Assembly: GCA_019459485.1 (NCBI GenBank)
Contig: JAIBEZ010000069.1
Coordinates: forward strand, 1-61,503
Source: Prolixibacteraceae bacterium
GTDB taxonomy: Bacteria; Bacteroidota; Bacteroidia; Bacteroidales; Prolixibacteraceae
Reading direction: 5' to 3'
Length of the DNA stretch: 61,503 nucleotides
How positions within the stretch are numbered: the first letter of the stretch is position 1; every line of letters starts with the position of its first letter. Positions 33,695 through 61,503 of the stretch are shown here, one piece after another. Under the pieces are notes generated by a model. The model was given only the letters and a program-made list of their open reading frames with translations. It did no database searches and was not told where the DNA came from. The translations under genes were made by a program, and so were the position numbers.

Positions 33695-33696
33695 TC

Positions 33697-34785: not shown

Positions 34786-34791
34786 TCCCAT

Positions 34792-36882: not shown

Positions 36883-36887
36883 AAAAG

Positions 36888-37023: not shown

Positions 37024-37329
37024 ATGAGTGAGTCCTTAATCATTCAAAAACTGGAAAGCATCGAAAAAATGCTGTCCGAGCAGAACATGCTCAAAAAAGA
37101 CGTGTTGAATTTTACTGAAACGGCCATTTATCTGGAAGTTTCACATTCACACCTGTACAAATTGACCAGCAATGGAGTAATCCCGTGCTACAAACCCAAC
37201 GGGAAGAAGCTCTATTTCAAAAGGTCAGAGTTGGACACCTGGTTACTTTCAAACCGGCAGACAACAGCCGAAGAGTTAGAAACAGAAGCAGCAAACTACC
37301 TCATGAGGAAAGGGAGGATCAGGCTATGA
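37024..37329 (+). CDS. Helix-turn-helix protein, excisionase family
   Basis: 101 aa. An N-terminal short coiled coil (IIQKLESIEKMLSEQNMLKK) precedes the DNA-binding domain (LNFTETAIYLEVSHSHLYKL … GVIPCYKPNGKKLYFKRSEL … LDTWLL), the HTH_17/excisionase pattern. The stop codon overlaps the next start (ATGA), so it is co-translated with a second, similar HTH protein. Probable role: recombination direction or regulation of replication genes of the element. Confidence 0.87.
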   Translation: MSESLIIQKLESIEKMLSEQNMLKKDVLNFTETAIYLEVSHSHLYKLTSNGVIPCYKPNGKKLYFKRSELDTWLLSNRQTTAEELETEAANYLMRKGRIRL

Positions 37330-37619
37330 ACGAGATACTTCAAGGCTTATTCTCGCTTTCAGGAGAATTAAAGGAAATAAAGGCACACCTTCATTACCTC
37401 AAGAAAACACGTGCCGAAATATTTAACGAATCCTGGATTGATGGGCAAGATGTTTTACTTGCCCTCAACATCAGCCAGCGCACTTTACAAACTTTGCGGG
37501 ATTCAGGAACCCTCCCGTTCTCAAAGCTCAATGGCAAGTTTTACTACAAGGTTTCCGATTTGGAAGCATTACTCGAAAGCAATTACTCCGGAAACCTTAA
37601 ACGCCAGAGCTATGATTGA
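37326..37619 (+). CDS. Second helix-turn-helix protein, excisionase family
   Basis: 97 aa from the ATG at 37326, which overlaps the previous stop by four bases. Domain: DGQDVLLALNISQRTLQTLR, then DSGTLPFSKLNGKFYYKVSD, a MerR/excisionase-type fold preceded by a coiled coil (LSGELKEIKAHLHYLKKT). Two adjacent paralogous HTH genes before the VirE_N gene is the usual order in Bacteroidota integrative elements. Its end overlaps the next start by 8 bp. A longer open frame beginning at 37185 in this phase is not used. Confidence 0.87.
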   Translation: MNEILQGLFSLSGELKEIKAHLHYLKKTRAEIFNESWIDGQDVLLALNISQRTLQTLRDSGTLPFSKLNGKFYYKVSDLEALLESNYSGNLKRQSYD

Positions 37620-38568: not shown

Positions 38569-38707
38569 ATACAATTTATTTTTGCTGAAGATGCTCTTTA
38601 AACCGGCATCCTCTAACTGGCCACTTTGGTGGACCGTCCTCCCCTTCCTCTCTTTCTATGCGGATATCCTGCTGAAATTCTCCATGTTATGCATGATTAT
38701 CTTTTAA
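38555..38707 (+). CDS. Small hydrophobic protein between VirE_N and DUF3987 genes
   Basis: 50 aa from ATG 38555 to TAA 38705-38707, overlapping the end of the VirE_N gene by 14 bases. MKPYKYNLFLLKMLFKPASS is followed by a hydrophobic, Trp-rich stretch (WPLWWTVLPFLSFYADILL), which looks like one membrane segment. Tight spacing and overlap on both sides favour a real gene. No family is known to me. Confidence 0.4.
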   Translation: MKPYKYNLFLLKMLFKPASSNWPLWWTVLPFLSFYADILLKFSMLCMIIF

Positions 38708-38718
38708 ATCCAACGGAA

Positions 38719-45500: not shown

Positions 45501-45700
45501 CAGTTCTTCAGTTAATTAGCATCGCTCTATCGAGTATTAATATTAAGGCAACTGTAGAAGAAAAACAATTTATAACAGCTCAGATTTCAAATGAATACCT
45601 TACACAATACCACAATCAGCAAATGGGACACGAGTATATTTTGCCTGGAATGAAACTCGATTTTGCCGCTGAACCTCAAAAGAATTTAGGACTTGCTTAA
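42557..45700 (+). CDS. hsdR: Type I restriction enzyme, R (motor/nuclease) subunit
   Basis: 1047 aa. N-terminal PD-(D/E)XK nuclease (PDITLY with D122; IIEVKK with E136 and K138), SF2 translocase with Walker A GSGKT (334-338), DEAH (446-449), GTPL, and the motif VI region LTGFDAPRLKKLYLGR … LLQALTRVNRPY. The C-terminal helical domain binds the methylase complex. It translocates DNA from an unmethylated target and cuts at a distance. Complete and in frame; hsdM starts 15 bp downstream. Confidence 0.96.
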   Translation: MAFNENSRVKLPALVHLCKLGYNYISEKKLKQACDPDTNINIDVLKSKLHQFNPLLKPIEIDQFFDKLKIVLDNDDLGREFYNIVSANSGIKLIDFEHIANNDFDCTTELTCKNGEDEFRPDITLYVNGLPLAIIEVKKPNNKEGVLKERDRINVRFKNRKFRRFLNLSQVMLFSNNMEYDHDSIVPIQGAFYSTNAKDKATFNCFREKTAKNEEGKPNFYKDFTYLTVPDSTENFILTDNNSTVIKHTPEYKTNKSVNTPTNRVITSLFSKERFLFALRYAIAYVDTKKEIDDVEVQELQKHIMRYQQMFATFAIKQKLSEGVKSGIIWHTQGSGKTALAFYNVKHLTDYYASLPNPVVPKFYFIVDRIDLLTQAKIEFEERGLTVNTVSDRDELMKQFRSQTSIFNQQGKLEITVVNIQKFKEDQHKVKMDEYAINLQRIYFLDEAHRGYKPDGCFLANLFDSDRDAIKIALTGTPLIGEEKNSCKVFGDYIDTYYYNQSIADGYTLKLMREDIESNYRMEIEKVLEEVQLKRSDIKKERIIADPRYVEALLNYITADLIKSRTYFGDQSMAGMIVCDSNPQARVMFQIFNEKQSEHHLQGALILHDEDDKETRKGYIEDFKKKASVDLLIVNIMLLTGFDAPRLKKLYLGRTLRDHNLLQALTRVNRPYNKFKYGYIVDFADIKDAFDATNEAYLKELKKEVGEENIDTYSCLFESNEEIIEQMKDIKEVLFGYNCTNAEEFSLQMNEIDDREKLLTIKKSLEQAKSLANVVRTFGDPELKEQFAKLAITKVNDLFSEVSHRLDTVNLKSSLQNQDAVNGIINEAMATITFSFTKVKEEELRMLSDDYTEAWQRTWGEFNKNFDQTAEEFISLAKVFREYFKDKNIEPASAAEARERIGYMDSVMEKIREINKRNSQLKQMYNNDEKFARAHKRVVQRGLISKRESEVCDNLNSIKQKIDEKVLLRRDVLRNDPYFEQTVLQLISIALSSINIKATVEEKQFITAQISNEYLTQYHNQQMGHEYILPGMKLDFAAEPQKNLGLA

Positions 45701-45715
45701 TATTTTAGATATAAT

Positions 45716-47359
45716 ATGACGACTTCATCAATTGAAATTCAAACAAAAACACTGATTGACGACCTAAAAGCAACATGCGCTTCTTATGGTCTTGGAAATG
45801 ATGGAAATGAGTACAAAATTATTACCCAGATATTTCTCTATAAATTCCTGAACGATAAATTCGGCTACGAAGTAAAAAATGTGGAACAAACGAATTATCG
45901 GACGCGACTGAAATCATCAGAAAAATGGGAAGATGCCCTCAAAGATTTCACCGACGAAGAATACAAAGATTTGCTTTCATTTTTACCTGCCGATAGCCCG
46001 AAACTCAGACGCGAGCATTTCATCAGCAATATGTGGAATCAACAGACAAAAGGTGATTTCTCAACCCTTTTTGATGCAACAATGGTCGATATTGCTAATT
46101 ACAATGCTGCAATCTTTTCCATGAAAACCGAGAGCGAAACCAAGCTTACCTTGTTCGAAAACATTACCATTCATATACCTGACAGCGGGAAACGGGATGA
46201 TTTTGCACGGGCTTTGATTGCAAAACTGGTAAACTTCAATTTTGAAAAGGTTTTCTCTCAGAAATACGATTTCTTCTCCACCATTTTTGAATACTTGATT
46301 AAAGATTACAATAAAGATGGCGGTGGTAAGTATGCTGAATATTTCACGCCTCATTCAGTAGCTTCCATTATGGCCCAACTTCTTGTGAAAGAAGGTGAAG
46401 ATATTTCTGATGTGTCTTGTTATGACCCATCTGCCGGTTCAGGTACGTTATTGATGGCTATTGCCCATGCCATTGGCGAGGAACGATGTACCATTTTCAG
46501 TCAGGATATTTCACAGAAATCGAGTAAAATGCTTCGGTTGAACCTGATTTTAAATAACCTGGTGCATTCCATACCAAATATCATTCAGGGTGACACGCTG
46601 GTATCTCCGTATCATAAAACACTTGAAGGAAGGCTGCAAAAGTTCGATTACATCGTAAGTAATCCTCCTTTTAAACTAGATTTTTCGGATACTCAACCCA
46701 AACTGATTGACCAAAAATCTCGCTTTTTTGCTGGAGTACCCGCCATTGCCAAAGCAAAGAAAGAGAGCATGGGCATCTACCTATGCTTTTTACAACACAT
46801 TATCAACTCGCTTTCGGCAAAAGGGAAAGCAGCAGTGGTCGTACCTAGTGGCTTTGTTACAGCTGGTAATGGCATTGAAAAGAAAATCCGAGAACACTTG
46901 GTAAACGAAAAAATGATCCGTGGTGTGGTTTCTATGCCCTCCAATATATTTGCAACCACCGGTACTAATGTATCGGTGCTGTTTCTCGACAAACAAAATG
47001 CAGACGGAAAAGTGGTATTGATTGATGCTTCAAAATTGGGAGCTACGGTGAAAGAAGACGGGACACAACGCACCAAATTAAGTAGCGATGACATTGATCA
47101 GATTGTAAATACATTTCACAATCGTCTTTCGGTCGAAGATTTCGCTGTAGCGGTTTCATACAACGAGATTAAAGAAAAAAATTACTCTTTCAGTGCCGGA
47201 CAATATATGGATGTTAAGATTGAATATACTGATATTACTCCGAGAGAATTTGTACTGAAAATGAATGGGTTTAGAGCAAATCTGAAAAGTCTTTTTACGG
47301 AATCGCAGGGACTGGAAATGGAGATTCAAAATCAACTGGAGGGATTAGAGTATGAGTAA
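45716..47359 (+). CDS. hsdM: Type I restriction-modification, M (methylase) subunit
   Basis: 547 aa. N-terminal helical domain, then the SAM-binding motif I DPSAGSGTL (237-245) and the catalytic NPPF (316-319) of adenine-N6 methyltransferases, with FSQDIS in motif II. With HsdS it methylates host target sites, and with HsdR it forms the cutting complex. The stop codon overlaps the hsdS start by 8 bp, so the subunits are translated in a coupled way. Confidence 0.96.
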   Translation: MTTSSIEIQTKTLIDDLKATCASYGLGNDGNEYKIITQIFLYKFLNDKFGYEVKNVEQTNYRTRLKSSEKWEDALKDFTDEEYKDLLSFLPADSPKLRREHFISNMWNQQTKGDFSTLFDATMVDIANYNAAIFSMKTESETKLTLFENITIHIPDSGKRDDFARALIAKLVNFNFEKVFSQKYDFFSTIFEYLIKDYNKDGGGKYAEYFTPHSVASIMAQLLVKEGEDISDVSCYDPSAGSGTLLMAIAHAIGEERCTIFSQDISQKSSKMLRLNLILNNLVHSIPNIIQGDTLVSPYHKTLEGRLQKFDYIVSNPPFKLDFSDTQPKLIDQKSRFFAGVPAIAKAKKESMGIYLCFLQHIINSLSAKGKAAVVVPSGFVTAGNGIEKKIREHLVNEKMIRGVVSMPSNIFATTGTNVSVLFLDKQNADGKVVLIDASKLGATVKEDGTQRTKLSSDDIDQIVNTFHNRLSVEDFAVAVSYNEIKEKNYSFSAGQYMDVKIEYTDITPREFVLKMNGFRANLKSLFTESQGLEMEIQNQLEGLEYE

Positions 47360-48689
47360 AATGTTGTTTGAAGATCTTCTATATGAGAAAGATGGATTAA
47401 TAAAAGGTCCATTTGGTGGAGATATTAAAAAATCAATATTTGTTTCAAAATCAGAAAATACCTATAAGGTCTATGAACAGGGTATTGTACTTAAAAAGGA
47501 TATAGATTATGGTGATTATTATGTGTCAAAAGAGTATTTTGAAAGAAAACTTAAACGGTTTGAAGTAAATGCTAATGATATACTTTTAACTGGCGCTGGA
47601 ACTCTTGGAGAACTTTTTATTGTGCCGCAAAATGCTCCAAAAGGAATTATAAATCAAGCTCTTTTACGTGTTCGATTAAATGGAAATATTGTAACTCGGG
47701 ATTTTTTCGTTTACTATTTTAAGTACTATATTAAATCCATAATAAGCAATATTAATGGTGATTCTGTAATACCTAATTTGCCTCCGTTGTCAATAATTAA
47801 ATCTACTATTATTGACATTCCGGATATTCCAAATCAGCAAAAAATTGCATCTGTCCTTTCTTCGTTAGATTCCAAAATCGAGCTCAACAACCGCATAAAT
47901 GCTGAGTTGGAAGCTATGGCTAAAACGCTTTATGACTATTGGTTTGTGCAGTTTGACTTTCCAGATACAAACGGCAAGCCCTACAAAACCAGCGGTGGCA
48001 AAATGGTTTGGAATGAGAAGTTGAAACGGGAGATACCGGAGGGATGGGAAATGAAAGATTTGGCTGATGTTGCTACCACTATCATGCGTGGTATTTCCCC
48101 AAGTTATAGAGAAGAAGGAGGAATATGTGTATTAAATCAAAAGTGCATTAGAGATCAGTCAATCAGCTTTGCACCTAGCCGAAGGCACGATAATGAATTA
48201 AAAGATGCAAGTTCAAGGTTAATTGAATATGGTGATGTTCTTGTTAATTCCACTGGCTTTGGAACACTTGGTCGCGTTGCAATTGTCAAACGACTAAAGG
48301 AACCAATCACTGTTGTTGATTCACATATCACGATTGTAAGAAGTGAAAGTGAAAATATCAGAAAGCTTTTTCTGGGATATTCGATGCTGATTAGGCAAAG
48401 TGAAATAGAGGGATTGGCAGAAGGATCTACAGGACAAACAGAATTGAGCAGAGTCAACTTAGGAAAATTAAAAATGGTCATTCCACCCATTGAGCTACAA
48501 TCCGTTTTTGAAAACTTCATAAATCCGCAATTCCAAAAAATGGCGAATAATGAGGCGGAGAATGAACAACTCTCCGAACTCCGCGACTGGCTGTTGCCCA
48601 TGCTGATGAACGGACAGGTAACGGTTGGCGAGACCAAGGAGAATCTGGACATGGCCGCCGAGCCTAAAGTGGAATATAATAAGCAATAG
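47352..48689 (+). CDS. hsdS: Type I restriction-modification, S (specificity) subunit
   Basis: 445 aa with two target-recognition domains. The first (about 1-170) has a weak GxxG-type start (KDGLIKGPFGGDI) and the second (about 225-400) begins PEGWEMKDLADVATTIMRG. Each is followed by a spacer helix: IPNQQKIASVLSSLDSKIEL and the C-terminal EAENEQLSELRDWLLPMLMN, as in functional HsdS. The target sequence cannot be predicted. No inverted repeats or spare TRD genes were seen next to it, so phase variation by shuffling is not indicated. Confidence 0.93.
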   Translation: MSKMLFEDLLYEKDGLIKGPFGGDIKKSIFVSKSENTYKVYEQGIVLKKDIDYGDYYVSKEYFERKLKRFEVNANDILLTGAGTLGELFIVPQNAPKGIINQALLRVRLNGNIVTRDFFVYYFKYYIKSIISNINGDSVIPNLPPLSIIKSTIIDIPDIPNQQKIASVLSSLDSKIELNNRINAELEAMAKTLYDYWFVQFDFPDTNGKPYKTSGGKMVWNEKLKREIPEGWEMKDLADVATTIMRGISPSYREEGGICVLNQKCIRDQSISFAPSRRHDNELKDASSRLIEYGDVLVNSTGFGTLGRVAIVKRLKEPITVVDSHITIVRSESENIRKLFLGYSMLIRQSEIEGLAEGSTGQTELSRVNLGKLKMVIPPIELQSVFENFINPQFQKMANNEAENEQLSELRDWLLPMLMNGQVTVGETKENLDMAAEPKVEYNKQ

Positions 48690-48694
48690 AACCT

Positions 48695-49486
48695 ATGTAT
48701 AAAGATGATTTGGTACATGAACTTATTCGATCAGCCAAAAGTTATGGATTAGCAAATTTTGGAGTCAGTTATATTCATCCATTGGAAAATACAAACAGCT
48801 CTATCATTTTTAACGAGTTAGAATATAGTTTTCAACCAAAATCGTGGCAAGCCACACAAGCAAATCCTGTTTATAGCTTACGAACAAAAAAGATACATTC
48901 CAACACGGTAACATCAGGCATTTACGAAATGCAATCATCCAACAGCTCCGATGCTTTAGCCATGAATATTTTTTGTTTTCCCGATTTTGCAAAATGGAAT
49001 GGCGTAAAAAATCTATTTGGGGTAGATACTTTTTCATCCATCCAATTCGGATTTAATCCACAAGTAGCTAAAAACGGTTCGAGTGATTCTACAGAAGTGG
49101 ATGTTTTTATTAACAAATCCATTATATGTGAATGCAAGCTAACTGAAGAAGGGTTTACTCAAAAAGAGAAACAAAACGTTGAACAGTACGATAATTTTAA
49201 AAAAGTCTTTCATGCTGATAAATTAATCCAAAATGGAAACACCTATCTTAATTATCAGCTCATTCGAAATATACTAGCAGCCTATCAACACAAGTGTCAC
49301 TTTGTGCTCATTTGCGATATGCGCCGCCCCGATTTAGTTAAGAGTTTTTATCAAACCATAAGGTGCATTAAAGACGATTTCATTGATTTAAGAACCAATT
49401 GTGAAATAATTTATTGGCAAGATATTGCCAAGGCGTGTGGAGCTGAATTGCAGCAGTTTCTTAAAGAGAAATATGGTATTTATTAA
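48695..49486 (+). CDS. PGN_0703-family putative restriction endonuclease
   Basis: 263 aa, starting 5 bp after hsdS. Core motif STEVDVFINKSIICECKL provides D136 and E146-x-K148 of a PD-(D/E)XK nuclease. The remaining layout (HKCHFVLICDMRRPDLV, CEIIYWQDIA) agrees with the PGN_0703 group found beside restriction systems in Bacteroidota. Probably an accessory nuclease of the type I locus or an independent defence enzyme. The target is unknown. Confidence 0.75.
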   Translation: MYKDDLVHELIRSAKSYGLANFGVSYIHPLENTNSSIIFNELEYSFQPKSWQATQANPVYSLRTKKIHSNTVTSGIYEMQSSNSSDALAMNIFCFPDFAKWNGVKNLFGVDTFSSIQFGFNPQVAKNGSSDSTEVDVFINKSIICECKLTEEGFTQKEKQNVEQYDNFKKVFHADKLIQNGNTYLNYQLIRNILAAYQHKCHFVLICDMRRPDLVKSFYQTIRCIKDDFIDLRTNCEIIYWQDIAKACGAELQQFLKEKYGIY

Positions 49487-49606
49487 GAATGTATAGTCAA
49501 TTTTGGCAATGGTTTGACCAAAATACAGAAATGAAATAGAAGTGAAAATTAGGAAGGCAAAGCAGCCGGAATAGAGAGAAGAAAAGCCAATATTAAACGT
49601 AGGAAT

Positions 49607-52450
49607 ATGAAACCATGGTACGAGGTTTATGACTTAATTTCAGAAGCTCTAAATAGATTCATAGAAAGTTCTGATGCAATCAAAATGAATCCTGGCAAGG
49701 CATTATATAATCGTTTTATTAATGATCCCCAATTTGTTGAAAACAACAACTGGATAAAGAAGTTTGATGAAAAGTTTAACGTTCGCAGCGTCGATCCAAT
49801 GCATATATTTGCTTCAATCAGTGCCAATAATCTCACCTTTAAAAGTCGTACTGCAAGAATTAATAAAATTTTAGAAACACTAAGTAGTGAGCCAATATCA
49901 GGTGAGATAAACTTTGACGGATGTCCTTCACTGGCTTTAATTCATATTTTATCAGCAAGGAATGAGACTTCTCAAGTAGAGGTGTGGGAATTATTTAACA
50001 GAATCCGTTCTAACAATACTAAAGGATTATTAAAAAAGGATTTTGATAGAATTAAAAGTTGGTATGGTGTTGCCTTTGGTTCATTTACAATTCTATTGTT
50101 TTGGATTAAATCAGATTGCTTTATTCCTTTTGATAAGAACACCAGGACATTTTTAATATCTGGGGGTATTATTGATCAAGAACCCAGAAGCTATGGTAGT
50201 TATATCAAACTTATAGAACGCATTGAGAAATATAATTACGAAAATGACCCTATTTATGGTTCTTCGGGCATATTTCGTGAAATTTCATTAATTGCTTATC
50301 AAACAATTGCTAAAAACGATAAGGATGTAAAACTGACAATTAATTTTCAAAAGCTTTTAGAAGAAGACAATGATAAAAATTTGGTTGAAAAAGGGAAAAA
50401 GGAACCTTCGGATGATCAAAAATCTAGACCTGCATTTAAACTTAAAAATGAGAGTAAAGAAAGACTAAAAAGTCTGGCGGAAGGTGCCAGTTTAGGATTT
50501 AAATTAGTTGCAATTAGACCATTGGAGGGTTGTAAGCAAGAATTTTTAAATGTGCTTAAAGCAAATGTGGTCTATAATTTTGATAAATCAATTTTCATAG
50601 ATAGTGATGATATTGTATATTTTTCTGATAAGAATCTAAAGCTGTATGATTTAAAAATAAAATCAGAACGAGCTTTACGAATTAATCTAAGTGCTATTGT
50701 AGGTAAAAATGGGTCAGGAAAAAGTAGTTTGATTGAATTGTTTTTTCGAATTGTAAACAATATAGCTTTTTCACGAAAAACGACTTTACAAACAGGTAAA
50801 CTTCAGCTCATTAAGGGTCTTTCTGTTGAGCTTTATTATACTCAGGGAGGGTTACTATACAAGCTAATTGTAATTGACAGTGAGGTTACAATTCAAACGT
50901 TTGAATTGCATGAAAATAAATATTTTAGACCAGTTGGTATTCCCCGAAAATTTCTAAAGCAAGATTTCAATATTTTTTTCTATACGGTTGCCGTAAACTA
51001 TTCGCATTATGCTTTGAATAGTATCTATATTGGTGATTGGGCTAGAATGCTCTTTCACAAGAACGATGCATACCAAACGCCATTGGTTGTTAATCCAATG
51101 AGAACAGATGGAAATATTAATATTAATTCCGAAAATGCGTTGGTTAAATCTCGACTGCTTGCAAATTTAATTGCTCCAATAGCGGATGAAGAAGATATTG
51201 GCTTGAGGCAATTAACTGAAAACCAGAAAGTAATTAAAATCACATTTGAACAAATTAATGACAAAAATCGAGTACTTTTTTATAGAAATACCAACGAAGA
51301 TGATGATGTTGAAGTTTTAGGAAACGCTTTAAAAACTAATTATTCGGATATATATAACCTGATTAAAGAGGTTTTTGAGTTTTCCCCAGACCACACAGAT
51401 GAGAATAATAATTTAGTAAATGAGTCGAAGAGATATATTGTAAAGAAACTTGTACGCATTTCATTAACTTATAAACACTATTCAAAATATTTCAATCAAT
51501 ATAAGATTGATTTTATTTCTACGAAAAGTTTAAAGGAATACCTTTCTCTTTTAAAGGAAGATAGGAGTCATATTGTTTACAAACTAAAGCAAGCAATCAA
51601 CTATTGGAAATATTCAGAATTGTGGCCTAGAGCAAATAAATTTGAACTACATATTGAAGATGCCGCTGATAAACTTCAGAAATTTCAGATGGAAACTGGA
51701 GAAAAACAAATAATTGAACTATTACCTCCTCCTATTTTTCGATTTGAAATCACCTTAATTGATTCATTGAAAAACGAAAGTGATTTTAACTCATTAAGTT
51801 CTGGTGAAAAACAACTAATTTATTCCACCGCCTCAATACTTTACCATCTTAAAAATCTTGACTCTGTTGCAGGAGAAAGGGGTTTAATAAAATATGATTG
51901 CATAAACCTTATCCTCGACGAAATAGAATTATATTATCATCCAGAACTGCAGAGGAGATTCGTTGGATACCTGCTTTCAATGATTGGGAAAATTGATTTT
52001 GAATATATTACGGCTCTTAATATTTGCCTTGTTACTCATTCACCCTATATTTTATCAGACATTCCAGATACTTATACCTTGAGATTAGAAGACGGTCGTC
52101 CGTCAAAAATGGAATACAAAACTTTTGGCGCTAATATACATGATCTCTTAGCCAATGAATTTTTTATGAAAAATGGGTATATGGGAGCGTTTGCGAAAGA
52201 TAAAATAAAAGAGGTAATAAAATATTTAGAAACTAAACTAAAGGATAGGTTAAATTCAAAATCGCTAGAACAAAAAACTGATGAATTTATTTGGGATAAA
52301 AATTCAGTGAAAATATTTATTGACTTTGTTGGAGAGCCACTTATTAGAAACAGTCTTCTAGATTTATACGATAAGGTATTTTTTAATAACCAAGAACAAA
52401 TCGATTTTGAAATAGCTCGTTTACTAAAACGGAAAGAACAACTTAATTAA
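49607..52450 (+). CDS. SMC/Rad50-like ATPase of a Septu-like system, with N-terminal extension
   Basis: 947 aa, with an AGGAA ribosome site just before the ATG. The ATPase part has Walker A GKNGSGKS (366-373), the ABC signature LSSGEKQ (about 730-736), Walker B NLILDEIE (D771, E772) and the H-loop LVTHSPYILSD. A coiled insertion lies between. Residues 1-280 are an extra domain not seen in classical PtuA, with the line LLFWIKSDCFIPFDKNTRTF resembling the N-terminal binding domains of McrB-like or homing-type proteins. The HNH gene starts 6 bp downstream, the standard PtuA/PtuB order. PtuA-type ATPases sense phage nucleic acid or ATP state and license the nuclease partner. Confidence 0.82.
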   Translation: MKPWYEVYDLISEALNRFIESSDAIKMNPGKALYNRFINDPQFVENNNWIKKFDEKFNVRSVDPMHIFASISANNLTFKSRTARINKILETLSSEPISGEINFDGCPSLALIHILSARNETSQVEVWELFNRIRSNNTKGLLKKDFDRIKSWYGVAFGSFTILLFWIKSDCFIPFDKNTRTFLISGGIIDQEPRSYGSYIKLIERIEKYNYENDPIYGSSGIFREISLIAYQTIAKNDKDVKLTINFQKLLEEDNDKNLVEKGKKEPSDDQKSRPAFKLKNESKERLKSLAEGASLGFKLVAIRPLEGCKQEFLNVLKANVVYNFDKSIFIDSDDIVYFSDKNLKLYDLKIKSERALRINLSAIVGKNGSGKSSLIELFFRIVNNIAFSRKTTLQTGKLQLIKGLSVELYYTQGGLLYKLIVIDSEVTIQTFELHENKYFRPVGIPRKFLKQDFNIFFYTVAVNYSHYALNSIYIGDWARMLFHKNDAYQTPLVVNPMRTDGNININSENALVKSRLLANLIAPIADEEDIGLRQLTENQKVIKITFEQINDKNRVLFYRNTNEDDDVEVLGNALKTNYSDIYNLIKEVFEFSPDHTDENNNLVNESKRYIVKKLVRISLTYKHYSKYFNQYKIDFISTKSLKEYLSLLKEDRSHIVYKLKQAINYWKYSELWPRANKFELHIEDAADKLQKFQMETGEKQIIELLPPPIFRFEITLIDSLKNESDFNSLSSGEKQLIYSTASILYHLKNLDSVAGERGLIKYDCINLILDEIELYYHPELQRRFVGYLLSMIGKIDFEYITALNICLVTHSPYILSDIPDTYTLRLEDGRPSKMEYKTFGANIHDLLANEFFMKNGYMGAFAKDKIKEVIKYLETKLKDRLNSKSLEQKTDEFIWDKNSVKIFIDFVGEPLIRNSLLDLYDKVFFNNQEQIDFEIARLLKRKEQLN

Positions 52451-52456
52451 TTATAA

Positions 52457-53410
52457 ATGATTGCAATTTCAACAGAAACCGTAAAGCAGGTATTCTTACT
52501 TTATAAAACAGAAATAGATAATATTATCGCTGAAAAACGTCAAGCTGTTGATGACTTTTTAAATGACCGTAGTAAAAGCCATAACAGTAAACAAAAACAA
52601 TATCTTACGAAAATAATTAATGACTTTGAAAAGATTGTTTTAGCTACACCTGCTGAAATTGAGGTGTATAGTAATAATAGTCTTAAGGCAATCCCAAAAC
52701 TATGGAAAAACGGGGTAAATAAACAAATTAGCTTTAAAGATGGTTTACTGAAAGCATTAAATTACAATGATTTACGCTCCAGTTTCTATCCAAAATATTT
52801 TCATAAAATTGGAATTAAAGCATGTGTCTATTGCAATTCTCAGTTGACTGTAAGTACAGAAAATGATGGAAATGTTTCCGCTAAATTTCAGGTTGATCAC
52901 TATCTTGATAAAGCAAGTTTTCCTTGTTTTAGCATTTCTTTTTTCAATTTGTATCCGACATGTGCATCATGCAACAACATAAAAAGAAATAAAGCAGTTA
53001 ATTTTTTCTTGTATTCAGAAGATTCAACTTCAACGGCAAAGTCGGAATTTAACTTTTGTTTTAAACCTGGTAGTGTAGCAAAATATTTAGCTAGTCATAG
53101 CATTGAAGATATTGAACTAGTATTTACAGAACCAAATGGAGACTTTCAAAAAACATTTGATATAGAGGGTATATACAACACACAAAAAGATATTGCAGAA
53201 GAATTAATTTTAAAATCAAAAGTCTATTCTAAAGCATATCAAAACTCTCTTATTAAAAGTTTCCCAGCAATTTTCACAAATGCCAGTTTGAGCAACCGTA
53301 TTTTAATCGGTACTTATTGCGAAGAAAATGAGATTCATAAAAGACCCATGTCAAAGTTTATGCAGGATATTGCAGAAGATCTAGGAATGATTCAAAAGTC
53401 CAAAAAATAA
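52457..53410 (+). CDS. HNH endonuclease, PtuB/TIGR02646-like
   Basis: 317 aa. HNH domain with zinc CxxC (C123, C126), the catalytic DH (D147, H148), N164 in FNLYPTC and the second zinc CxxC (C169, C172), then NNIKRNK. This is the PtuB or TIGR02646 pattern, the nuclease found with SMC-like ATPases in Septu and in retron systems. No reverse transcriptase or msr/msd is present, so Septu-like is preferred. Residues around the zinc site are complete, so the enzyme is probably active. Confidence 0.85.
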   Translation: MIAISTETVKQVFLLYKTEIDNIIAEKRQAVDDFLNDRSKSHNSKQKQYLTKIINDFEKIVLATPAEIEVYSNNSLKAIPKLWKNGVNKQISFKDGLLKALNYNDLRSSFYPKYFHKIGIKACVYCNSQLTVSTENDGNVSAKFQVDHYLDKASFPCFSISFFNLYPTCASCNNIKRNKAVNFFLYSEDSTSTAKSEFNFCFKPGSVAKYLASHSIEDIELVFTEPNGDFQKTFDIEGIYNTQKDIAEELILKSKVYSKAYQNSLIKSFPAIFTNASLSNRILIGTYCEENEIHKRPMSKFMQDIAEDLGMIQKSKK

Positions 53411-53438
53411 TTTTCAACCAAAGGATACAACAATTTAT

Positions 53439-55511
53439 ATGAAAGGACAAGATAGATTTTTATCGGAGTTTATTGATGGTGCCAGAAATAGGTTCATCAT
53501 TCCAGTTTATCAACGGAATTACGATTGGAAAAAAGATAATTGCGTTCAACTATTTAACGATTTGGTAAAAACTGCAAAATACAACAAGTCAAGTCATTTT
53601 TTCGGTAGTGTGGTATATGGCTCCGCCAATAATGGAAACAGAAATGACTACCTAATAATCGATGGTCAGCAGCGACTTACCAGTGTCATGCTGATACTTG
53701 CAGCAATAGTTAATCTGATTAAAGAAGGAATTATTAAGCCAGAAAAGCAAAATCTTTGCGATTACATTGAAGAGACTTTTTTAATGGATAAGTATAATCC
53801 TGGAGAGCGTAAAATGCGATTGAAACCGATAAAAAATGACTGTCACGCCTTTGATAATATCATTGTGGGAAATAAAGACAATTACGATCACAAATCTAAT
53901 GTAACAACGAATTACCTTTATTTCTATGAGCGAATACAGTTGAAGGAAATTCCATTAGATGATTTATGTGAAGCTATTGAGAAGTTGAAAATAATCGACA
54001 TCTACCTCGAGAAAGACGATGAGCCACAGTCAATTTTCGAAAGTTTGAACTCGACTGGTCTTGACCTTGAAGAAAGCGATAAGATCCGCAATTATGTATT
54101 AATGGGCCTGAATGCTGATCGCCAGGAAGAATACTATGAAAACTATTGGAATCCAATTGAAAAACTGACCAGTTTTAAAGTTAGTACATTTGTTCGGGAT
54201 TATTTATCCTTAAAACAAGGTCGAATTCCGGTAATCGACAATGTTCATCCAACCTTTAAAGATTTTATTGAGAATCCAAAAGCTCCTATGGTAGTTCCTG
54301 AAGTTTTAGCAGAAATGGTAACTTTTGCTAGAATAAATCATGAATTTAATCAGGCAACCAAATACTCTCCTAAGATTTGTACGATATTGAAACGATTAGC
54401 ACAAATGGATATGAGTGTTATAAATTCATATCTGATGGCCTTTTTCAAATATGCAGAAGAAAACACTGAACAGGAAGATACCTACCTCAAGGTACTTTCA
54501 ACGATAGAATCATTTATATTTCGTCGGTTGGTCTGTAGCTATGGTACAAATGCTTTGAATAAAATATTCTGCACTCTTCACAAGGATGTATTGAAGCTAA
54601 AATCAGAATATGACAATTACTCCGATGTATTTATATACATTTTATTGAACAAGAAAAGTTCATCTAAATATCCTGATGATGTTGAGTTCAAACAAGCTTT
54701 ACTGACCCGCAATATTTATTCGATGAATTCGAAAAACAAAATGTATTTGTTTAATCGCCTCGAAAACAGAGATAGTAAAGAAAAGGTTGAAGTAATTAAA
54801 GCAATGACGGAAGGCACCTTCTCAGTGGAACATATCATGCCACAAACACTTACTGAACAGTGGAAAAAAGATTTAGGTGAAGAACATGATCGTATTTACA
54901 ATGAGTGGCTGAATACACTTGGTAATCTGACGTTAACCGGATACAACAGTAAATACAAGAATCGTCCCTTTGGTGAAAAACGAGATATTAAAGACGGATT
55001 TAAAGACAGTAATTTACGCTTAAACAGTTATTTGTCTCTTTGCGATAAATGGGGCGAAGCTGAAATGACAACACGCCGAAATCAATTATGGCAGTTGTCC
55101 AATGACTTATGGAAATATCCAGCAACCTCCTTTGAGCCAGTTGTTCAATTTCCAGAAATGCGCAGCCTCGACGAAGACTTTGTCTTTAAAGGAAATAAGA
55201 TTAATTCATTTACATTTTTAGGAACTCAATACAAAGTATCAGCTTGGTCAGAAATGATAATTGAAGTTACAAAATTGATTTATGAAATAGATTCGGCGCC
55301 ATTGTATCAACTTATAGATGATGCTTCATTAGATTTCTTACCCAAGCAAGAAAGTTGGAATACTAAAATTGGAGAAGGTCTCTATCTTAACATAGCGAAT
55401 AGTACAATGGCTAAAATACGTATATTGAAAAAAGTATTCTCAAAATACGAATTGGACGAAAGTGAGCTAGAATTTGGTATTCCAATACAGTCTGAACCAG
55501 TTGAAATTTAG
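53439..55511 (+). CDS. GmrSD-type modification-dependent nuclease (DUF262-DUF1524)
   Basis: 690 aa. N-terminal DUF262 domain (IPVYQRNYDWKKDNCVQLFN and nucleotide-binding IDGQQRLTS, D75-R79) and C-terminal DUF1524 HNH-like domain (FSVEHIMPQTL with H465 … LGNLTLTGYNSKYKNRPF). Fused GmrS-GmrD-like enzymes cut DNA with sugar-modified cytosines, as made by T-even-type phages, or other modified DNA. Residues of both active sites look in place. The upstream 28-bp gap suggests transcription with the Septu-like pair. An EVE-domain gene lies downstream, another modified-base module. Confidence 0.9.
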   Translation: MKGQDRFLSEFIDGARNRFIIPVYQRNYDWKKDNCVQLFNDLVKTAKYNKSSHFFGSVVYGSANNGNRNDYLIIDGQQRLTSVMLILAAIVNLIKEGIIKPEKQNLCDYIEETFLMDKYNPGERKMRLKPIKNDCHAFDNIIVGNKDNYDHKSNVTTNYLYFYERIQLKEIPLDDLCEAIEKLKIIDIYLEKDDEPQSIFESLNSTGLDLEESDKIRNYVLMGLNADRQEEYYENYWNPIEKLTSFKVSTFVRDYLSLKQGRIPVIDNVHPTFKDFIENPKAPMVVPEVLAEMVTFARINHEFNQATKYSPKICTILKRLAQMDMSVINSYLMAFFKYAEENTEQEDTYLKVLSTIESFIFRRLVCSYGTNALNKIFCTLHKDVLKLKSEYDNYSDVFIYILLNKKSSSKYPDDVEFKQALLTRNIYSMNSKNKMYLFNRLENRDSKEKVEVIKAMTEGTFSVEHIMPQTLTEQWKKDLGEEHDRIYNEWLNTLGNLTLTGYNSKYKNRPFGEKRDIKDGFKDSNLRLNSYLSLCDKWGEAEMTTRRNQLWQLSNDLWKYPATSFEPVVQFPEMRSLDEDFVFKGNKINSFTFLGTQYKVSAWSEMIIEVTKLIYEIDSAPLYQLIDDASLDFLPKQESWNTKIGEGLYLNIANSTMAKIRILKKVFSKYELDESELEFGIPIQSEPVEI

Positions 55512-55521
55512 ATTTTCATAA

Positions 55522-55765
55522 ATGATCGAGACTTATAAAAATGAGATACCCAATTGGGTACTAGAAGACGATACTTTCGTTTTTCATGGCACAAGTAATT
55601 TAAGTGAAAAATATTTAGATAACGGCTTAACAGCTCTAAACACTCCTGTTTCTTTTGAAATTGTAGATAACATTGTTTCAATTTTATAATGAAATGCCAT
55701 GGTGGAGCAAAGATTCTAAAGAAAGCCTTAATCAAAATACCTTTAATCTATGTATATGCATATAA
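55522..55765 (+). pseudogene. Short broken ORF with an ART-like N-terminus
   Basis: ATG at 55522 starts MIETYKNEIPNWVLEDDTFV, then FHGTSNLSEKYLDNGL; the HGTS piece resembles the first motif of ADP-ribosyltransferase-fold proteins. The frame ends at TAA 55687-55689. A one-base shift at about 55685 gives YNEMPWWSKDSKESLNQNTF and then TAA at 55763-55765, which suggests a frameshifted short or truncated gene. Family assignment is weak. Confidence 0.4.
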
Positions 55766-55775
55766 ATTTCATAAG

Positions 55776-56285
55776 ATGGCAAAAATAAAAGTAACCGGCT
55801 ATTGGACTTTCTTTTGTAATCCAAAGTATTGGGCTATTGATGAGTTCCTTTCTAATATTGAACAGGATTATGAAAGTGAATACAGAATCACATCTTGGCA
55901 AAAGGATTTTTTTTTTAAGGGACAGCTTGGTGTCATAAGAGTTGGGAATGATGCTCGTACCAAACTACAACTTGGCGGAAGGGAAAAACTTAAAAAGGGA
56001 ATATATGCCATTGTTGAGATCTTGGGGACACCATATCTGCAAATTGAATCCGAATCTAATTTCAAAATCAATCATCAAAAAGGAGAAACATCTAGGTATA
56101 TCGTTCCAATAAAGTATCAAAGGAATTACATTCTAAATCCGATACTTCTTGAAAGCATTCAATATGATTACGTTATAAAATCTGATCCTTATTTATTGAA
56201 AGGTATCCAAGCAGCTTCTATGCCATTGTCAGAAGATGCACTAAATCGAATATTGCTATATGGAGAAAAGGATAATGTTGAATAA
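55776..56285 (+). CDS. EVE-domain protein
   Basis: 169 aa from the ATG at 55776 (MAKIKVTGYWTFFCNPKYWA); the frame is open further upstream but that part overlaps the broken ART-like fragment. The N-terminal 100 residues have the EVE/PUA-like pattern: YWTFFCNPKYWAIDEFL, then ITSWQKDFFFKGQLGVIRVG and GIYAIVEIL. EVE domains read modified bases such as 5-methyl- or hydroxymethyl-cytosine and are often fused to or encoded near modification-dependent restriction enzymes. Here it follows a GmrSD-type gene. No nuclease is fused. Confidence 0.75.
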   Translation: MAKIKVTGYWTFFCNPKYWAIDEFLSNIEQDYESEYRITSWQKDFFFKGQLGVIRVGNDARTKLQLGGREKLKKGIYAIVEILGTPYLQIESESNFKINHQKGETSRYIVPIKYQRNYILNPILLESIQYDYVIKSDPYLLKGIQAASMPLSEDALNRILLYGEKDNVE

Positions 56286-56290
56286 ATTTT

Positions 56291-56863
56291 TTAATTTATC
56301 AGAATATATCTACCACCCTTATCTGAAAAATTTTGACAATTATCTTTATTGTCATCAATAAGTAAACAGTTTTGAAAATTATTAAGTCCTAAATCATTTT
56401 GTATATGATCAAACAATGATATTGGTTTGTCATTTTTCAAAAGACTAATATCATGAGATAAATACATTTTATCAAAGTAGGAATTTAAGTAGTTATACTC
56501 ATTTAGAATGTATTTGAATAATGGCATATTGTCTGTCACAAGATATTTTTTTGCATTAGGGAACATTATGTCAATAGTATTAAGTATCTTACTATCTGGC
56601 TTGTAAAACCTGAGGTCTTCTAAAAACTTAGTAATAATGTAATCGGGACTTACCTTCACTCTAAATTCGGATAAATATTCCAAACTAAGTTTACCTCGCA
56701 TCCATTCATTTAATATATCTGCATCCTCAAAGACACAATTGCACCATTCCTTCAATAATTTATCTTTTTGAGATTGAACACACCAATAGAAGTTCGTTGA
56801 TAAAACACCAAACCAATCGACAAATACAATGTCTATTTTATTCCTGTTTAAAAAGGTCGTCAT
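56291..56863 (-). CDS. Small HAD-superfamily hydrolase
   Basis: 190 aa. Motif I FVDWFGVL gives the nucleophile D16; the usual second Asp is Phe18, so phosphatase chemistry with a general acid at that place is altered. Motif II T110 (KYLVTDNM), motif III Lys near 143-146 (LLKNDKP) and motif IV D170-D171 (CLLIDDNKDNC) are present. The cap is helical (class I-like). It is the third gene of a minus-strand operon; its start lies 26 bp inside the end of the TIM-barrel gene. In this setting it would dephosphorylate or otherwise process a sugar-phosphate or nucleotide-like product; inferred. Confidence 0.72.
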   Translation of the reverse strand: MTTFLNRNKIDIVFVDWFGVLSTNFYWCVQSQKDKLLKEWCNCVFEDADILNEWMRGKLSLEYLSEFRVKVSPDYIITKFLEDLRFYKPDSKILNTIDIMFPNAKKYLVTDNMPLFKYILNEYNYLNSYFDKMYLSHDISLLKNDKPISLFDHIQNDLGLNNFQNCLLIDDNKDNCQNFSDKGGRYILIN

Positions 56864-58112
56864 GGATATTATTTATTATGCTTAAGTCATTAATTACATG
56901 TTTCCCAATAATAAAATTGAAGTTATTACCCAAATGCTCTATAATCCAAATAATGTATTCCTTTTCAATATTTCTATCAAGCCAAATTTCTTTATTCTCA
57001 AAATATCTACGGTTAGAAGTAAATATATTTAGAAAATCCAACATATTTGCCTCATTTTCTGGATTTGGAATTACAATCGATAAAAATTGGGAATCGAATG
57101 ATTTGGAAATAAACGACAATAAATCCTTATAATAGACTGATGGGATAACTTTAATATCATTAGTAGTATTGAAAATTTTGTTCAGATTAATACCATCATA
57201 ATATTGAACAAAGATCCGGATAAGGTTTAGCGGGTGCTTATTTGATAAATTATTTATTTTATCTTCAATTTCTTTTTCATTCTTAATGAATAAGTGTATT
57301 GAATATGGTATCTGAGTTATAAAATTCTGTTTTTCAGTAATACTCTTATCAATAGTATTAAAGGAAGCATAAAGAGAACCATCTGAGAAATCTAAATGAT
57401 AATCTAAATTCGAATTTAAATAGTATGAGGAGGCTTGATAAATTTTTTCAAGTGGGATGTCAGTCAAACTAATTGAAAGTTTCTTTTTTCTTGGGTATTT
57501 TAATAAATCACAAACTTTATCTAAATTTCTATAATTCAATTCTGAATTAAATCTAAAGTAACTTTGAATATCATAACCACAAATATTTAATGAATGTAAC
57601 TCATTTATTCGCTCCAATGTAATACCACCAGCGAGTAAAGTTTTCTCTTTTAGTTTTTCTGGAAAATATTGAAGTAATGGGTAGCTATTTTTTTTATTGG
57701 TTCCACCCAAATAAGAAGTGTCATAAATCAAATAATCATGCAAATCATTGATTGATTCATAATCTAAATATTTTGAATGATTTGTGATGACACCAAATAA
57801 AATTAACTTCGGAAAAAGTTTTCTAATTGCATTTACAATTAAAGGATCAATTTCAAAATGAAACTGAATTCCTGAAGGCATATAAAATTCGATGAGCTTC
57901 TTTAGAATTTCTATTTCATGAATTTTTGTAACAATAATTGATTTGGCGTCACTTCGTTTTATAAAATTGTTAAGTTCAGAATATTCTCCAATATTCTCCG
58001 TTGATAGAATATGAATACCGAGAAAATCAACATTCTGCTTTATAGCAAAACTTGCAAATGAAAGTGAATCAATTTTGCAAACTTTAATAATATGATTCCT
58101 CTTGAATTTCAT
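56838..58112 (-). CDS. Fusion of TrpF-like and ribulose-phosphate-3-epimerase-like TIM barrels
   Basis: 424 aa. Residues 1-200 follow phosphoribosylanthranilate isomerase: VCKIDSLSFASFAIKQNVDF aligns with 'ICGITxxxDA', placing C12 at the catalytic Cys; YDTSYLGGTNKK puts D131 at the catalytic Asp; LAGGITLERINELHSLNI is the phosphate-binding end. Residues 210-424 recall ribulose-5-phosphate epimerase: YHLDFSDGSLYASFNT (DxxDG), SIHLFIKN and the final FIIGKHVIND. The protein is in no trp or pentose operon. It overlaps the upstream gene by 4 bp and the HAD gene by 26 bp. Most likely it isomerises or binds a phosphoribosyl intermediate; whether both barrels are active cannot be seen. Confidence 0.68.
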   Translation of the reverse strand: MKFKRNHIIKVCKIDSLSFASFAIKQNVDFLGIHILSTENIGEYSELNNFIKRSDAKSIIVTKIHEIEILKKLIEFYMPSGIQFHFEIDPLIVNAIRKLFPKLILFGVITNHSKYLDYESINDLHDYLIYDTSYLGGTNKKNSYPLLQYFPEKLKEKTLLAGGITLERINELHSLNICGYDIQSYFRFNSELNYRNLDKVCDLLKYPRKKKLSISLTDIPLEKIYQASSYYLNSNLDYHLDFSDGSLYASFNTIDKSITEKQNFITQIPYSIHLFIKNEKEIEDKINNLSNKHPLNLIRIFVQYYDGINLNKIFNTTNDIKVIPSVYYKDLLSFISKSFDSQFLSIVIPNPENEANMLDFLNIFTSNRRYFENKEIWLDRNIEKEYIIWIIEHLGNNFNFIIGKHVINDLSIINNIHDDLFKQE

Positions 58113-59788
58113 AAAATAAAGTTAGTCTTCATTTGTTTGATCTGTATTTGTTTAACGTTCTCAGAAATTTTAAAATCTTTTATGTCATCAATTCTTCGGT
58201 AAAAAATATAAATTTCCTTTTTTTTCATTGCAGATATCACAAAAAGAGAAGAGATATAAGCAGAGGGACCAGGACAAAACAATGCTACAATATGGGATCT
58301 GTCAATATCCTTAATGGCATCATGGAGAAAATTACGACCTGCAATTTCCTTGTATGTATGATTATTACCATCCTTTTCTATTCTATTAACAAGCCAATCA
58401 TCAACTATCTCATAATCAGGATGTAGTTGAAATTTATTACGTATGTAAATTAAGTAGTCATAGCTTTCTGAAATATAGGACAATGAACATGCGATAAATA
58501 CCTTTTTAGTATTTAAATCCTTGGGTTTTGGATTTACTGCAGGTATTTCAATATCAAAAAGCGTTTGCCCTAATTCAGTTTTTGCTTCGACTTTTGCTTT
58601 TGTTTTATCGAATTTTCCCTTTCGATTAGTGTAACTAGTTTTATTTGAAGAAGTTGTATAACTTGACTCTTTAAGTACGCAACATTTTTTTAGTTGTTCA
58701 AGATTTACACCACCATGAAGCTCCATTTGCATTTGTTTAATTCTTTTAGCTCCAGAATAATACAGACAAGCGAAATAAATGTTATTACATTTATTTTTAA
58801 GGATACTAATCAAGGATTGAAGGGTTCTTCCTGTTGTAATTCCATCGTCGACAATTAAGATATTTTTATTTTTAAAATCAGAAAAATTTATTTCGAGTTT
58901 GTCTGAACCTTTATCTGAATAATTCGATATTTTTTTGAGCAATATTTTTGCCTTAGGATAAACAAAATGTTTAACTATATATGGCAATTCTATTCCCCCA
59001 AATCGAATTCCAATAATGATATCAATGTTTTCTGAAGGAAGATTTCTCTTAAGCTTGTGAATAAATAAAAGGTTGTCACTTGGTATATCTCCTTCCTTGT
59101 AGCGTCTTATTGAACCCAAATCAGGGTTAAATATGTTTAGATATTCTGTGATGAACTCCCTAACCTCAATTGTAAAGCCAATTAGCTGAGAATAACTAAT
59201 AGTTGTTTGTGGCCGATCAAGGATATAAGAGTAATAAATTATTATTGCATTTTTAACTAGATCTTCTAAACTAACCTTATCAAGCGTAATTTCATGGTTC
59301 AAAACATCTTCAAAAAGCAAAATTAATTTATATCGAATATCATCAAGAACCGAAGCAATAATAAAACTTCCATGTATGAAATCCTTTTTGTCAATTTCTT
59401 GAATAAAATGAAGACTACTATCCAGATAAATAAAGGTTTTTATTGCTTGGTAAATTCTCGGTTCGTCTTTTAAAACGGAATAATAGACCTGTTGGCGATT
59501 GTAGATTTTATCTCCAATAATCTGAAGAAAGTTCTCATAGGAAAATTTTTTTGATAACCTATTCATCAATCTCTTATCTGCTTCAGTTAGAGAACTTATT
59601 AATACGTGACTTTCTCCTGAAGAATCAAAATTATAAGCATCAAAGATGAATTTATTAGCTTTATTAATTAAATCGAGCTCTTTATCGATTTGAGCCTTGT
59701 AATCCTCAAATTCCTTTACTATTTTTTTTAAATGTTTAGTGATATATTCAGGAGGGAGATTAATGTCAGCTGTTTGCAAATCTTCCAT
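58109..59788 (-). CDS. Phosphoribosyltransferase with C-terminal nucleoside-deoxyribosyltransferase-like domain
   Basis: 559 aa, three parts. Residues 1-220: alpha-helical, no family seen. Residues about 225-365: type I PRTase fold with the PRPP loop ILIVDDGITTGRT (310-322) and the early PPi-side loop IIIGIRFGGIELPY. A Ser/Lys-rich linker (372-425) follows. Residues 428-535: a Rossmann-like domain resembling nucleoside 2-deoxyribosyltransferases or related NAD-glycohydrolase folds (KKVFIACSL … EIVDDWLV … AIKDIDRSHIVALFCPGPSA … KKEIYIFYR). The usual catalytic Glu after the Gly-rich loop is not evident. Lead gene of a three-gene operon. Confidence 0.78.
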   Translation of the reverse strand: MEDLQTADINLPPEYITKHLKKIVKEFEDYKAQIDKELDLINKANKFIFDAYNFDSSGESHVLISSLTEADKRLMNRLSKKFSYENFLQIIGDKIYNRQQVYYSVLKDEPRIYQAIKTFIYLDSSLHFIQEIDKKDFIHGSFIIASVLDDIRYKLILLFEDVLNHEITLDKVSLEDLVKNAIIIYYSYILDRPQTTISYSQLIGFTIEVREFITEYLNIFNPDLGSIRRYKEGDIPSDNLLFIHKLKRNLPSENIDIIIGIRFGGIELPYIVKHFVYPKAKILLKKISNYSDKGSDKLEINFSDFKNKNILIVDDGITTGRTLQSLISILKNKCNNIYFACLYYSGAKRIKQMQMELHGGVNLEQLKKCCVLKESSYTTSSNKTSYTNRKGKFDKTKAKVEAKTELGQTLFDIEIPAVNPKPKDLNTKKVFIACSLSYISESYDYLIYIRNKFQLHPDYEIVDDWLVNRIEKDGNNHTYKEIAGRNFLHDAIKDIDRSHIVALFCPGPSAYISSLFVISAMKKKEIYIFYRRIDDIKDFKISENVKQIQIKQMKTNFIL

Positions 59789-60238
59789 AGAATTTATTGA
59801 CTTAACTTGTTAATGAATACGATTATTTTAGTCTAAAGTTTATAAGCATCTTAATATTTGAATGGCTTGATCCCTTATAATTATGGATTTATAGATTACA
59901 AATGAGTGATTTAATTTTTATCAGGGTTAATCTTTCTTCAAATTGAAATTCATCAAAAATCAAATATAGTAAATTATAGTAATATTGCGCAAAAAAAAAT
60001 CAATTGTTTTTACATTCAAAGACTTATGAATTTAGGTTTTATGCAAATGGGCAAAGTCAATAATTAGGATAATCGAGTAATCCACGTTGTAATTCCATAT
60101 CACTCCTACCCTTGGTCTCATTTTTTGTCACACTTTTTGCAACCCTACACACCAATAGCACAACTTGTCCCGATCCGTCGGGATTGGCTTTTCGTTTCTC
60201 AAAGCCAAAGAGCTATGCCAACCCACAAGGCAAAAAGA
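59789..60238. other. Intergenic DNA upstream of the PRTase operon
   Basis: AT-rich. The minus-strand promoter of the PRTase operon must lie in the left 100 bp, but no clear TAnnTTTG could be assigned. From about 60110 on, the composition changes to C-rich sequence with no credible gene; open frames there lack any domain. TCCCGATCCGTCGGGA (60167-60182) is a small hairpin. Confidence 0.5.
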
Positions 60239-60568
60239 CGCTTCACGGTATTTATCCCGATTTTAGATCGGGAACTATCTCCACCGTTCCGCTTGTGCCA
60301 ACCTGCCCGCACCTGACTTTGACACTTTTTTTTACTACATTTTTTAAATATCTGATATTTAGATACATGCAAGATCGTGCGAGATTTTTTGGGTGACGCA
60401 ACAAAATAGAATTCCTGTGGGGGGGTACAGAAACTTTTGAATTATTTGAATGTCAATTGCTTTTGGGTGACGCATTGTCAAAGTCAAGAAAAAAACGCTT
60501 CACGGTATTTATCCCGATTTTAGATCGGGAACTACCTCCACCGTTCCGCTTGTGCCAACCTGCCCGCA
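60239..60568. repeat. 73-bp direct repeat pair
   Basis: 60239-60311 and 60496-60568 are nearly identical (one T/C difference noted, near 60278/60535), 257 bp apart. Each contains the hairpin TCCCGAT-TTTAG-ATCGGGA. The pair encloses a shorter repeat. This looks like duplicated non-coding DNA or the scar of an insertion. Confidence 0.8.
60387..60474. repeat. Direct repeat TTTTGGGTGACGCA
   Basis: Exact 14-bp copies at 60387-60400 and 60461-60474, 74 bp apart and inside the larger 73-bp repeat pair. Could be a target duplication or recombinase core site. No matching gene between. Confidence 0.6.
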
Positions 60569-60719
60569 GAAGGCGGGAAAATTAAACCCCAAAGCTATTG
60601 ATACATAACGTGCTATTCTATAACAGAAACCCCCCAGCCGAACCCCGGAAAAACGGCTGGACTGCCATAGAATCACGCTATGTACAATAGCCGCACGAAC
60701 CCCGCCCACCCGGTTCGCG

Positions 60720-61503
60720 ATCAGTACTTTTCAATCAACACTATCGCCGGAAAAAACCACAAAGGCCCCACCACCCGTCTAAGGTGCAGGCCATGAATTG
60801 TTTTACGGCCAAAGCCTGCGGCAGGTGGCTTCCGCTTCTCTCCATTACACTCCAGGGCTGCATTTCGTTCCGCCACCTTACGTTCCATTCCGTTCATTGT
60901 CATCCCTCAGCCTCGGCTACCCACGCAAGAGTGCTTCCATTCATTCCATTGCGCTCAGGCCGCCCGCCGTTTCATTCCGCTCCCCTTTGGCTTTCCTTCC
61001 CACAGGCCAGTAGTCAAAGCCAAAACGGGAAGCTACATTCCACCCCTCCCAATTCGCTACATTGCATTCAGTCAACACCCTTGCTTTCCCCATGCCAACC
61101 AGAGGTATGCCCTGCGTAGTGTCCACCCCTGAACCCCAAAAGCCACAATAGCCCCACCGCCCTTTAATGGTGCAGGTAAAAATAAAGAGCTTTCGCGCAG
61201 GGCCTTCATGCTTGCAGCCGGTTCGTTTCACTCATTCAACCGTTACGTTCGTACCTCACTACACTATTTCATTCGCTCACCTCACCAGCTTCAGCACCGC
61301 ACGTGTAAGTGTTTCGTGCCTCAACACCCACACCTTTCCCCACCCACGCCAACAGCATTTCCACTTATTTTTCCTGCGAAGTGTTCACCCCTGAAAACCA
61401 AAAACCACAAAAGCCCCACCGCCCTTTAATTGTGCAGGTAAAAATAAAGAAGCATTCCCGCAAGGCCTTTGTGCTTGCAGCCGGTTAGTTTCACTCATTC
61501 AAC
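60720..61503. repeat. Dispersed C/T-rich repeat family, copy 3 (runs off the window)
   Basis: From GGTTCGCGATCAGTA (also at 12980-12995 of copy 1) it follows copies 1 and 2 through GCCTGCGGCAGGTGGCTTCC and CTCGGCTACCCACGCAAGAG. In this copy the block CCACAAAAGCCCCACCGCCC … GCAGCCGGTT … CACTCATTCAAC occurs twice (about 61130-61240 and 61395-61503), a tandem period of about 270 bp. The first 170-bp block of copies 1 and 2 is absent. The right end is outside the window. Confidence 0.85.

Follow-up and report, generated by a model that had tools for sequence, protein, structure and literature searches.

Near one end of the 61,503-nucleotide contig JAIBEZ010000069.1 of a Prolixibacteraceae bacterium (assembly GCA_019459485.1; the window hereafter means this whole stretch, positions 1 to 61,503) lies a three-gene operon, at 56291-59788 on the minus strand, that joins a phosphoribosyltransferase (PRTase) domain to a TrpF-like barrel and to a protein resembling haloacid dehalogenase (HAD) hydrolases. 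We tentatively propose that it is a metabolic cassette acquired horizontally, one that probably travels as cargo close to the phage-defence genes of an integrative element and that might make an amino-pentulose from phosphoribosyl pyrophosphate (PRPP). The three open reading frames (ORFs) each start with ATG. Gene 1 (58109-59788, 559 aa) shares 4 bp (58109-58112) with gene 2 (56838-58112, 424 aa, a candidate double (beta/alpha) barrel), which shares 26 bp (56838-56863) with gene 3 (56291-56863, 190 aa). A first-pass annotation, made from the DNA letters, had described these ORFs and overlaps, and our coordinates bear it out. Given such overlaps we regard the three genes as coupled. ORFs of such length at 26-30% GC are hardly to be expected by chance, judging from the frequency of stop codons, and we dismiss that origin.

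Gene 1 contains a PRTase domain, as had been suggested. PF00156 matches its residues 252-351 (E 5.7e-11, 42.4 bits against a Pfam cut-off of 26.3), over a core that we place at residues 245-345. The PRPP loop region (ILIVDDGITTGRT, 58823-58864 on the minus strand, around residues 309-322), where the PRTase profiles match, is intact and keeps its pair of Asp (VDDGITTGRT), as in the PRTase superfamily. Several other PRTase families and PRTases of the Protein Data Bank (PDB) match around this loop too. PRTase_2 (PF15609), which we take to be the Ter-type PRTase, reaches only E 0.0083, below its cut-off. No useful match to the N-terminal part (residues 1-244) came out of the profile searches, and the C-terminal part (residues 421-559) may have a Rossmann-like topology, judged by eye. 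This tail had been read as a nucleoside deoxyribosyltransferase (NDT), which we reject as unsupported: PF05014 gives no match, hhalign gives a probability of 0.6%, and the 3.6 bits obtained on a local NDT profile, built from 5 of 8 loci, are equalled by 87 of 3000 shuffles.

Gene 2 had been described as a fusion of a TrpF-like barrel, with conserved C12 and D131, and a barrel like ribulose-phosphate 3-epimerase (RPE). The TrpF half stands; the RPE half is suggestive. The first half (57498-58091, minus strand, residues 8-205) matches PF00697 at E 8.7e-8 (32.5 bits against a Pfam cut-off of 22.7) and aligns by hhalign with the TrpFs of relatives at E 7.5e-8, with 24% identity. It scores 35.6 bits on a profile of 27 TrpFs, taken from 28 loci with the window's own copy excluded, and shuffles of the second half score at most 4.8. 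C12 and D131 line up with the catalytic-type Cys and Asp of TrpF in both hhalign and MAFFT alignments. In TrpF the Arg of the KSxR loop binds the carboxylate of anthranilate. This Arg is lost from gene 2 in both alignments, replaced by E39 (hhalign) or by Asn (MAFFT), which would fit an amine other than anthranilate. Gene 2 scores at most 27.6 bits on single-domain TrpF models with cut-offs of at least 172, and so lies outside the TrpF equivalogs. The genome also carries a separate ordinary TrpF on contig 11 (1.7e-38), alone among 41 genomes in having two TrpF matches. Gene 2 is thus dispensable for tryptophan.

The pair recalls the TrpD-TrpF steps of tryptophan synthesis, where, after the transfer from PRPP, an Amadori isomerase acts that has both a Cys and an Asp. 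The operon likewise sets a PRTase beside a putative Amadori isomerase bearing both residues. It differs from TrpD-TrpF in that gene 1 matches the common PRPP-loop family PF00156 and not a TrpD family, in the replaced Arg and in the housekeeping TrpF encoded elsewhere. In the route that we propose, gene 1 would make an N-glycoside by moving the 5-phosphoribosyl group of PRPP onto an amine or base. Gene 2, through its TrpF-like half, would then open the ring by Amadori rearrangement, yielding a derivative of 1-amino-1-deoxyribulose 5-phosphate. The second half, if RPE-like, might epimerise this ketopentose phosphate, a substrate of RPE type, at C3, and the HAD-like gene 3 product might take off the phosphate. 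The route would end in a nucleoside-like amino-pentulose with an open ring. The first two steps would draw on significant domain matches and the last two on weak ones; their order, the substrate, both later activities (epimerase and phosphatase) and any anti-phage role are inferred. If this chemistry is right, a mobile cassette near defence genes would join PRPP transfer to Amadori and epimerase chemistry outside the pathways for Trp and His. We know of no trp, pentose or purine operon that combines a PRTase, a TrpF-like double barrel and a HAD protein, and no system with this combination is among the literature matches listed, in agreement with what had been noted from the sequence.

The second half of gene 2 (56841-57497, minus strand, residues 206-424) is weakly RPE-like. 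On a profile of 22 RPEs (22 of 27 loci) it scores 9.3 bits, which none of 5000 shuffles equals (best 8.7), but this score cannot tell an RPE from another barrel, because in a control the RPEs themselves score up to 9.5 bits on the TrpF profile. Of the 26 window proteins tested, no other exceeds 2.8 bits on the RPE profile. The residues S213, H239-x-D241 and H273 are spaced as in RPEs to about one residue, and the pattern S...HxD...H, picked after the sequence was seen, occurs in 21 of the 22 RPEs, in none of the 27 TrpFs and in 95 of 20000 shuffles. No Pfam or PDB match was found for this half, which we would call no more than another phosphate-binding barrel that might be RPE-like. One further locus, L104, was scored apart, at -0.8 bits. 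In that relative (L104:56-2058) the RPE-family match sits within a longer protein whose tail looks CBS-like, and the gene adjoins one resembling DAHP synthase, both by eye.

For gene 3 the HAD fold that had been claimed is weakly supported. Its motifs are shared with relatives, and no library score rises above a cut-off: Pfam gives no useful match, and the HAD matches in NCBIfam are weak and below every cut-off. A tblastn search of the plasmid collection found three relatives, 24-27% identical over about 90% of the length, of a small subfamily that is also present on rhizobial and actinobacterial replicons. We aligned these with gene 3 and with a second Rhizobium protein, the start of which is unaligned. 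All four HAD motifs (DWFGVLS, TDNM, LLK and IDD in gene 3) are found, with T110, K143 and D170-D171 lining up in all 4 relatives and D16 in 3 of the 4. W27, WMRG (54-57), NM (112-113), LK (142-143), IDD (169-171), C176, F179 and GG (183-184) are invariant throughout. As motif I partner to D16, gene 3 has F18, the actinobacterial relatives have Y or H, and R. rhizogenes has D. Next to the R. rhizogenes relative are genes for a formyltransferase and for a RelA/SpoT-domain protein. On that plasmid a protein of 1310 aa (L003:3249-7735) combines RelA/SpoT with poly-gamma-glutamate hydrolase domains; its gene and the formyltransferase gene adjoining the gene 3 relative lie on opposite strands and overlap at their starts.

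The Nocardia relative has as neighbours a sugar-nucleotide dehydrogenase, glycosyltransferases and a kinase. Such surroundings, together with the formyltransferase in R. rhizogenes, would suit an ordinary metabolic or salvage cassette, for amine or sugar detoxification or for a small natural product, that is merely located in a mobile region. The recognisable domains of the operon are those of small-molecule metabolism enzymes, and no sensor or killing domain is recognised among them. Yet the visible side of the operon shows neither a transporter nor a regulator nor any other pathway gene, the contig ending 1.7 kb upstream, and the operon is absent from the sampled relatives. We see this explanation as possible, if rather doubtful.

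As to location, the operon comes after the last of a series of defence genes and downstream of a core with integrase and primase (33332-40554, plus strand), in which Pfam recognises a helix-turn-helix protein, a tyrosine integrase, DUF6617, a BT4734-like protein and a DUF3987/PriCT_2 primase. The defence genes (42557-56285, plus strand) are hsdR-M-S, REase-ARP, PDC-M62A/B (Septu-like), GmrSD and a weak EVE. The restriction, Septu-like, GmrSD and EVE neighbours are those described at first, with the EVE match falling below its cut-off. The weak-EVE gene (55689-56285), convergent with gene 3, ends 5 bases away from it. On the other side the contig ends at 61503, and the 1.7 kb between gene 1 and this end hold no ORF of at least 120 aa. 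Of 119 genomes, 14 (with the window's own among them) carry the primase at E <= 1e-100. We compared 13 element stretches from 10 genomes, including the second copy of the own genome; some stop at contig ends. BT4734-like and primase matches are present in 10/10 of these genomes and the integrase in 4/10. Matches to hsd-like genes occur in 3 and a short GmrSD-like match in 1; genes 1-3 are unmatched at E <= 1e-5 in all 13 stretches. In the search for attachment sites, repeats were no longer than in a control stretch, and no tRNA was found. The operon is probably the cargo of a mobile element.

The first-pass annotation had counted a gene order unique to this genome as a point against its own proposal, and this is what we find: within the sampled genomes the order of the three genes is unique. 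Our genome samples, which overlap, comprise 61 relatives and 395 phylum, 393 order and 395 class genomes, all of one phylum; other phyla were covered by one motif scan and by plasmid, phage and viral collections. Gene 1 finds only its own copy among the relatives and the phylum and order genomes. One further match in the class genomes (G1056, residues 294-343) is a ComF-like ORF by sequence. No relative of gene 1 was found by tblastn in the plasmids or phages, nor any in the viral contigs, where a broader pattern picked out at least 8 loci matching the PRTase core alone, without a match to gene 2 or 3 at E <= 1. A widened PRPP-loop pattern run over 84,980 species, which would miss an orthologue with a different loop, gave 84 stretches, of which 17 were confirmed, all of them small other PRTases (ORFs of 105-224 aa) that match residues 295-356 of gene 1 alone. 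The surrounding DNA examined showed no match to gene 2 or 3 at E <= 0.1. Full-length gene 2 has its own copy as sole match among 134 family genomes (E <= 1e-8). In 99 phylum genomes at E <= 0.01 it is again full length in its own genome only, with weak matches in 9 others, 8 of them to the TrpF half and 1 to residues 305-378; no match was found in the plasmid collection and no relative in the viral one. Gene 3 matches 4 other genomes of 247, by its C-terminal half only. It has no relative in the viral collection, and one of its relatives, searched in phages, found none. Matches in PHROGs are weak only. Since sampling outside the phylum used the motif alone, we take uniqueness as limiting rather than final.

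Several of these results weigh against the proposed cassette. No relative of the operon shows genes 1-3 travelling together. The ends of the element were not found, and so we can only infer that the operon is cargo. Its GC content (0.26-0.30 for genes 1-3) lies below that of the integrase, DUF6617 and primase genes (0.36-0.44), yet low GC is not peculiar to the operon because the neighbouring PDC-M62 pair has it too (0.30-0.31). For the second half of gene 2 the control scores given above are joined by an hhalign comparison with RPE that is not significant (E 0.083, probability 0.7%), and the fourth RPE metal ligand could not be placed in the alignment. F18 of gene 3 stands at the second Asp of typical HAD phosphatases, and phosphatase activity is for this reason not assured. 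Single-sequence AlphaFold models of the two large proteins (genes 1 and 2) have pLDDT values of 41.6 and 35.7 and are unusable. One might even think of a decaying or lone chimeric operon with no current function, given its single occurrence in the sampled genomes, the missing second HAD Asp and the ends of gene 1 without an assigned domain. But its three ORFs are intact and overlapping, with catalytic-type residues conserved, and we hold decay to be very improbable. At present the operon is intact but orphan.

A nucleotide-based defence or signalling role, which was part of the interpretation first offered, is possible but, with no relative of the whole operon found in our samples, a guess; that interpretation taken as a whole is partly supported, and the observation behind it partly confirmed. 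Gene 1 might be the sensor or effector PRTase of an anti-phage system, with genes 2 and 3 making or removing its product. The operon adjoins defence genes, and excerpts of PMC12548924 and PMC9122126 propose PRTases as effectors in DprA-linked and type III retron systems; newly cloned systems named in PMC13092281, in the legend to a figure, include a PRTase. PADLOC gives a weak ShosT match on gene 1 (E 3.4e-4, residues 300-346), but these 47 residues surround a loop common to PRTases, and with genes 2 and 3 unmatched the hit does not make up a full system. The operon resembles ShosTA and the type III retron effectors in having a PRTase in a defence context. It differs in its partners: the Pfam scan, which covered 43 of the 45 window ORFs of at least 120 aa, shows no DprA or reverse transcriptase. 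Moreover, the operon lies on the strand opposite to the defence genes, and no recurrence with such genes can be demonstrated. We consider this system unlikely.

The Ter-associated module offers another comparison. Excerpts of PMC7824862 and PMC5512222 propose that its PRTases and HAD proteins make a nucleoside-like signal, and here too a PRTase and a HAD-like protein stand together near conflict genes. Unlike that module, the operon has a TrpF-like double barrel, and PF15609 on gene 1 stays below its cut-off. The same scan shows no Ter, ATP-grasp or PELOTA/TRSP gene, consistent with the first reading, in a contig that stops at 61503. A bolder idea is a defence or signalling module making an undescribed messenger, an amine-linked 1-amino-1-deoxypentulose, from PRPP through the PRTase and then a single double barrel doing both TrpF-type Amadori isomerisation and RPE-type epimerisation, with the HAD protein releasing it or switching it off. 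We find this improbable. If right, the amino-pentulose route would bring a definite chemical hypothesis to the unsettled debate over the products of PRTases in prokaryotic conflict systems.

Some features of the contig remain to be described. Its domain content, such as a Por secretion tail, and the kinds of match obtained point to Bacteroidota as the phylum. Upstream of gene 1 lies an 80-bp direct repeat (60232-60311 and 60489-60568, 97.5% identical). A repeat between genes, about 570-700 bp long and with copies 87% alike, occurs at 60711-61398, 30543-31114 and 12987-13676. Its copies flank a region containing the element core and the operon; the genome has two more copies elsewhere, one of them partial at a contig start. 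Among 24 genomes searched, 9 others match this repeat, each of them from the same genus, and this speaks for the contig being of its genus on either side of the operon. Genes for a HipA_2 kinase and a DUF3037 protein are adjacent at 28339-29485. A pair of this type is named PDC-M66 in an excerpt of PMC12548924, where it is found in place of the retron PRTase effector. The region 3504-10036 codes for a large protein of Rhs/SpvB type that ends in an AHH nuclease, and after it comes an Imm11 immunity protein.

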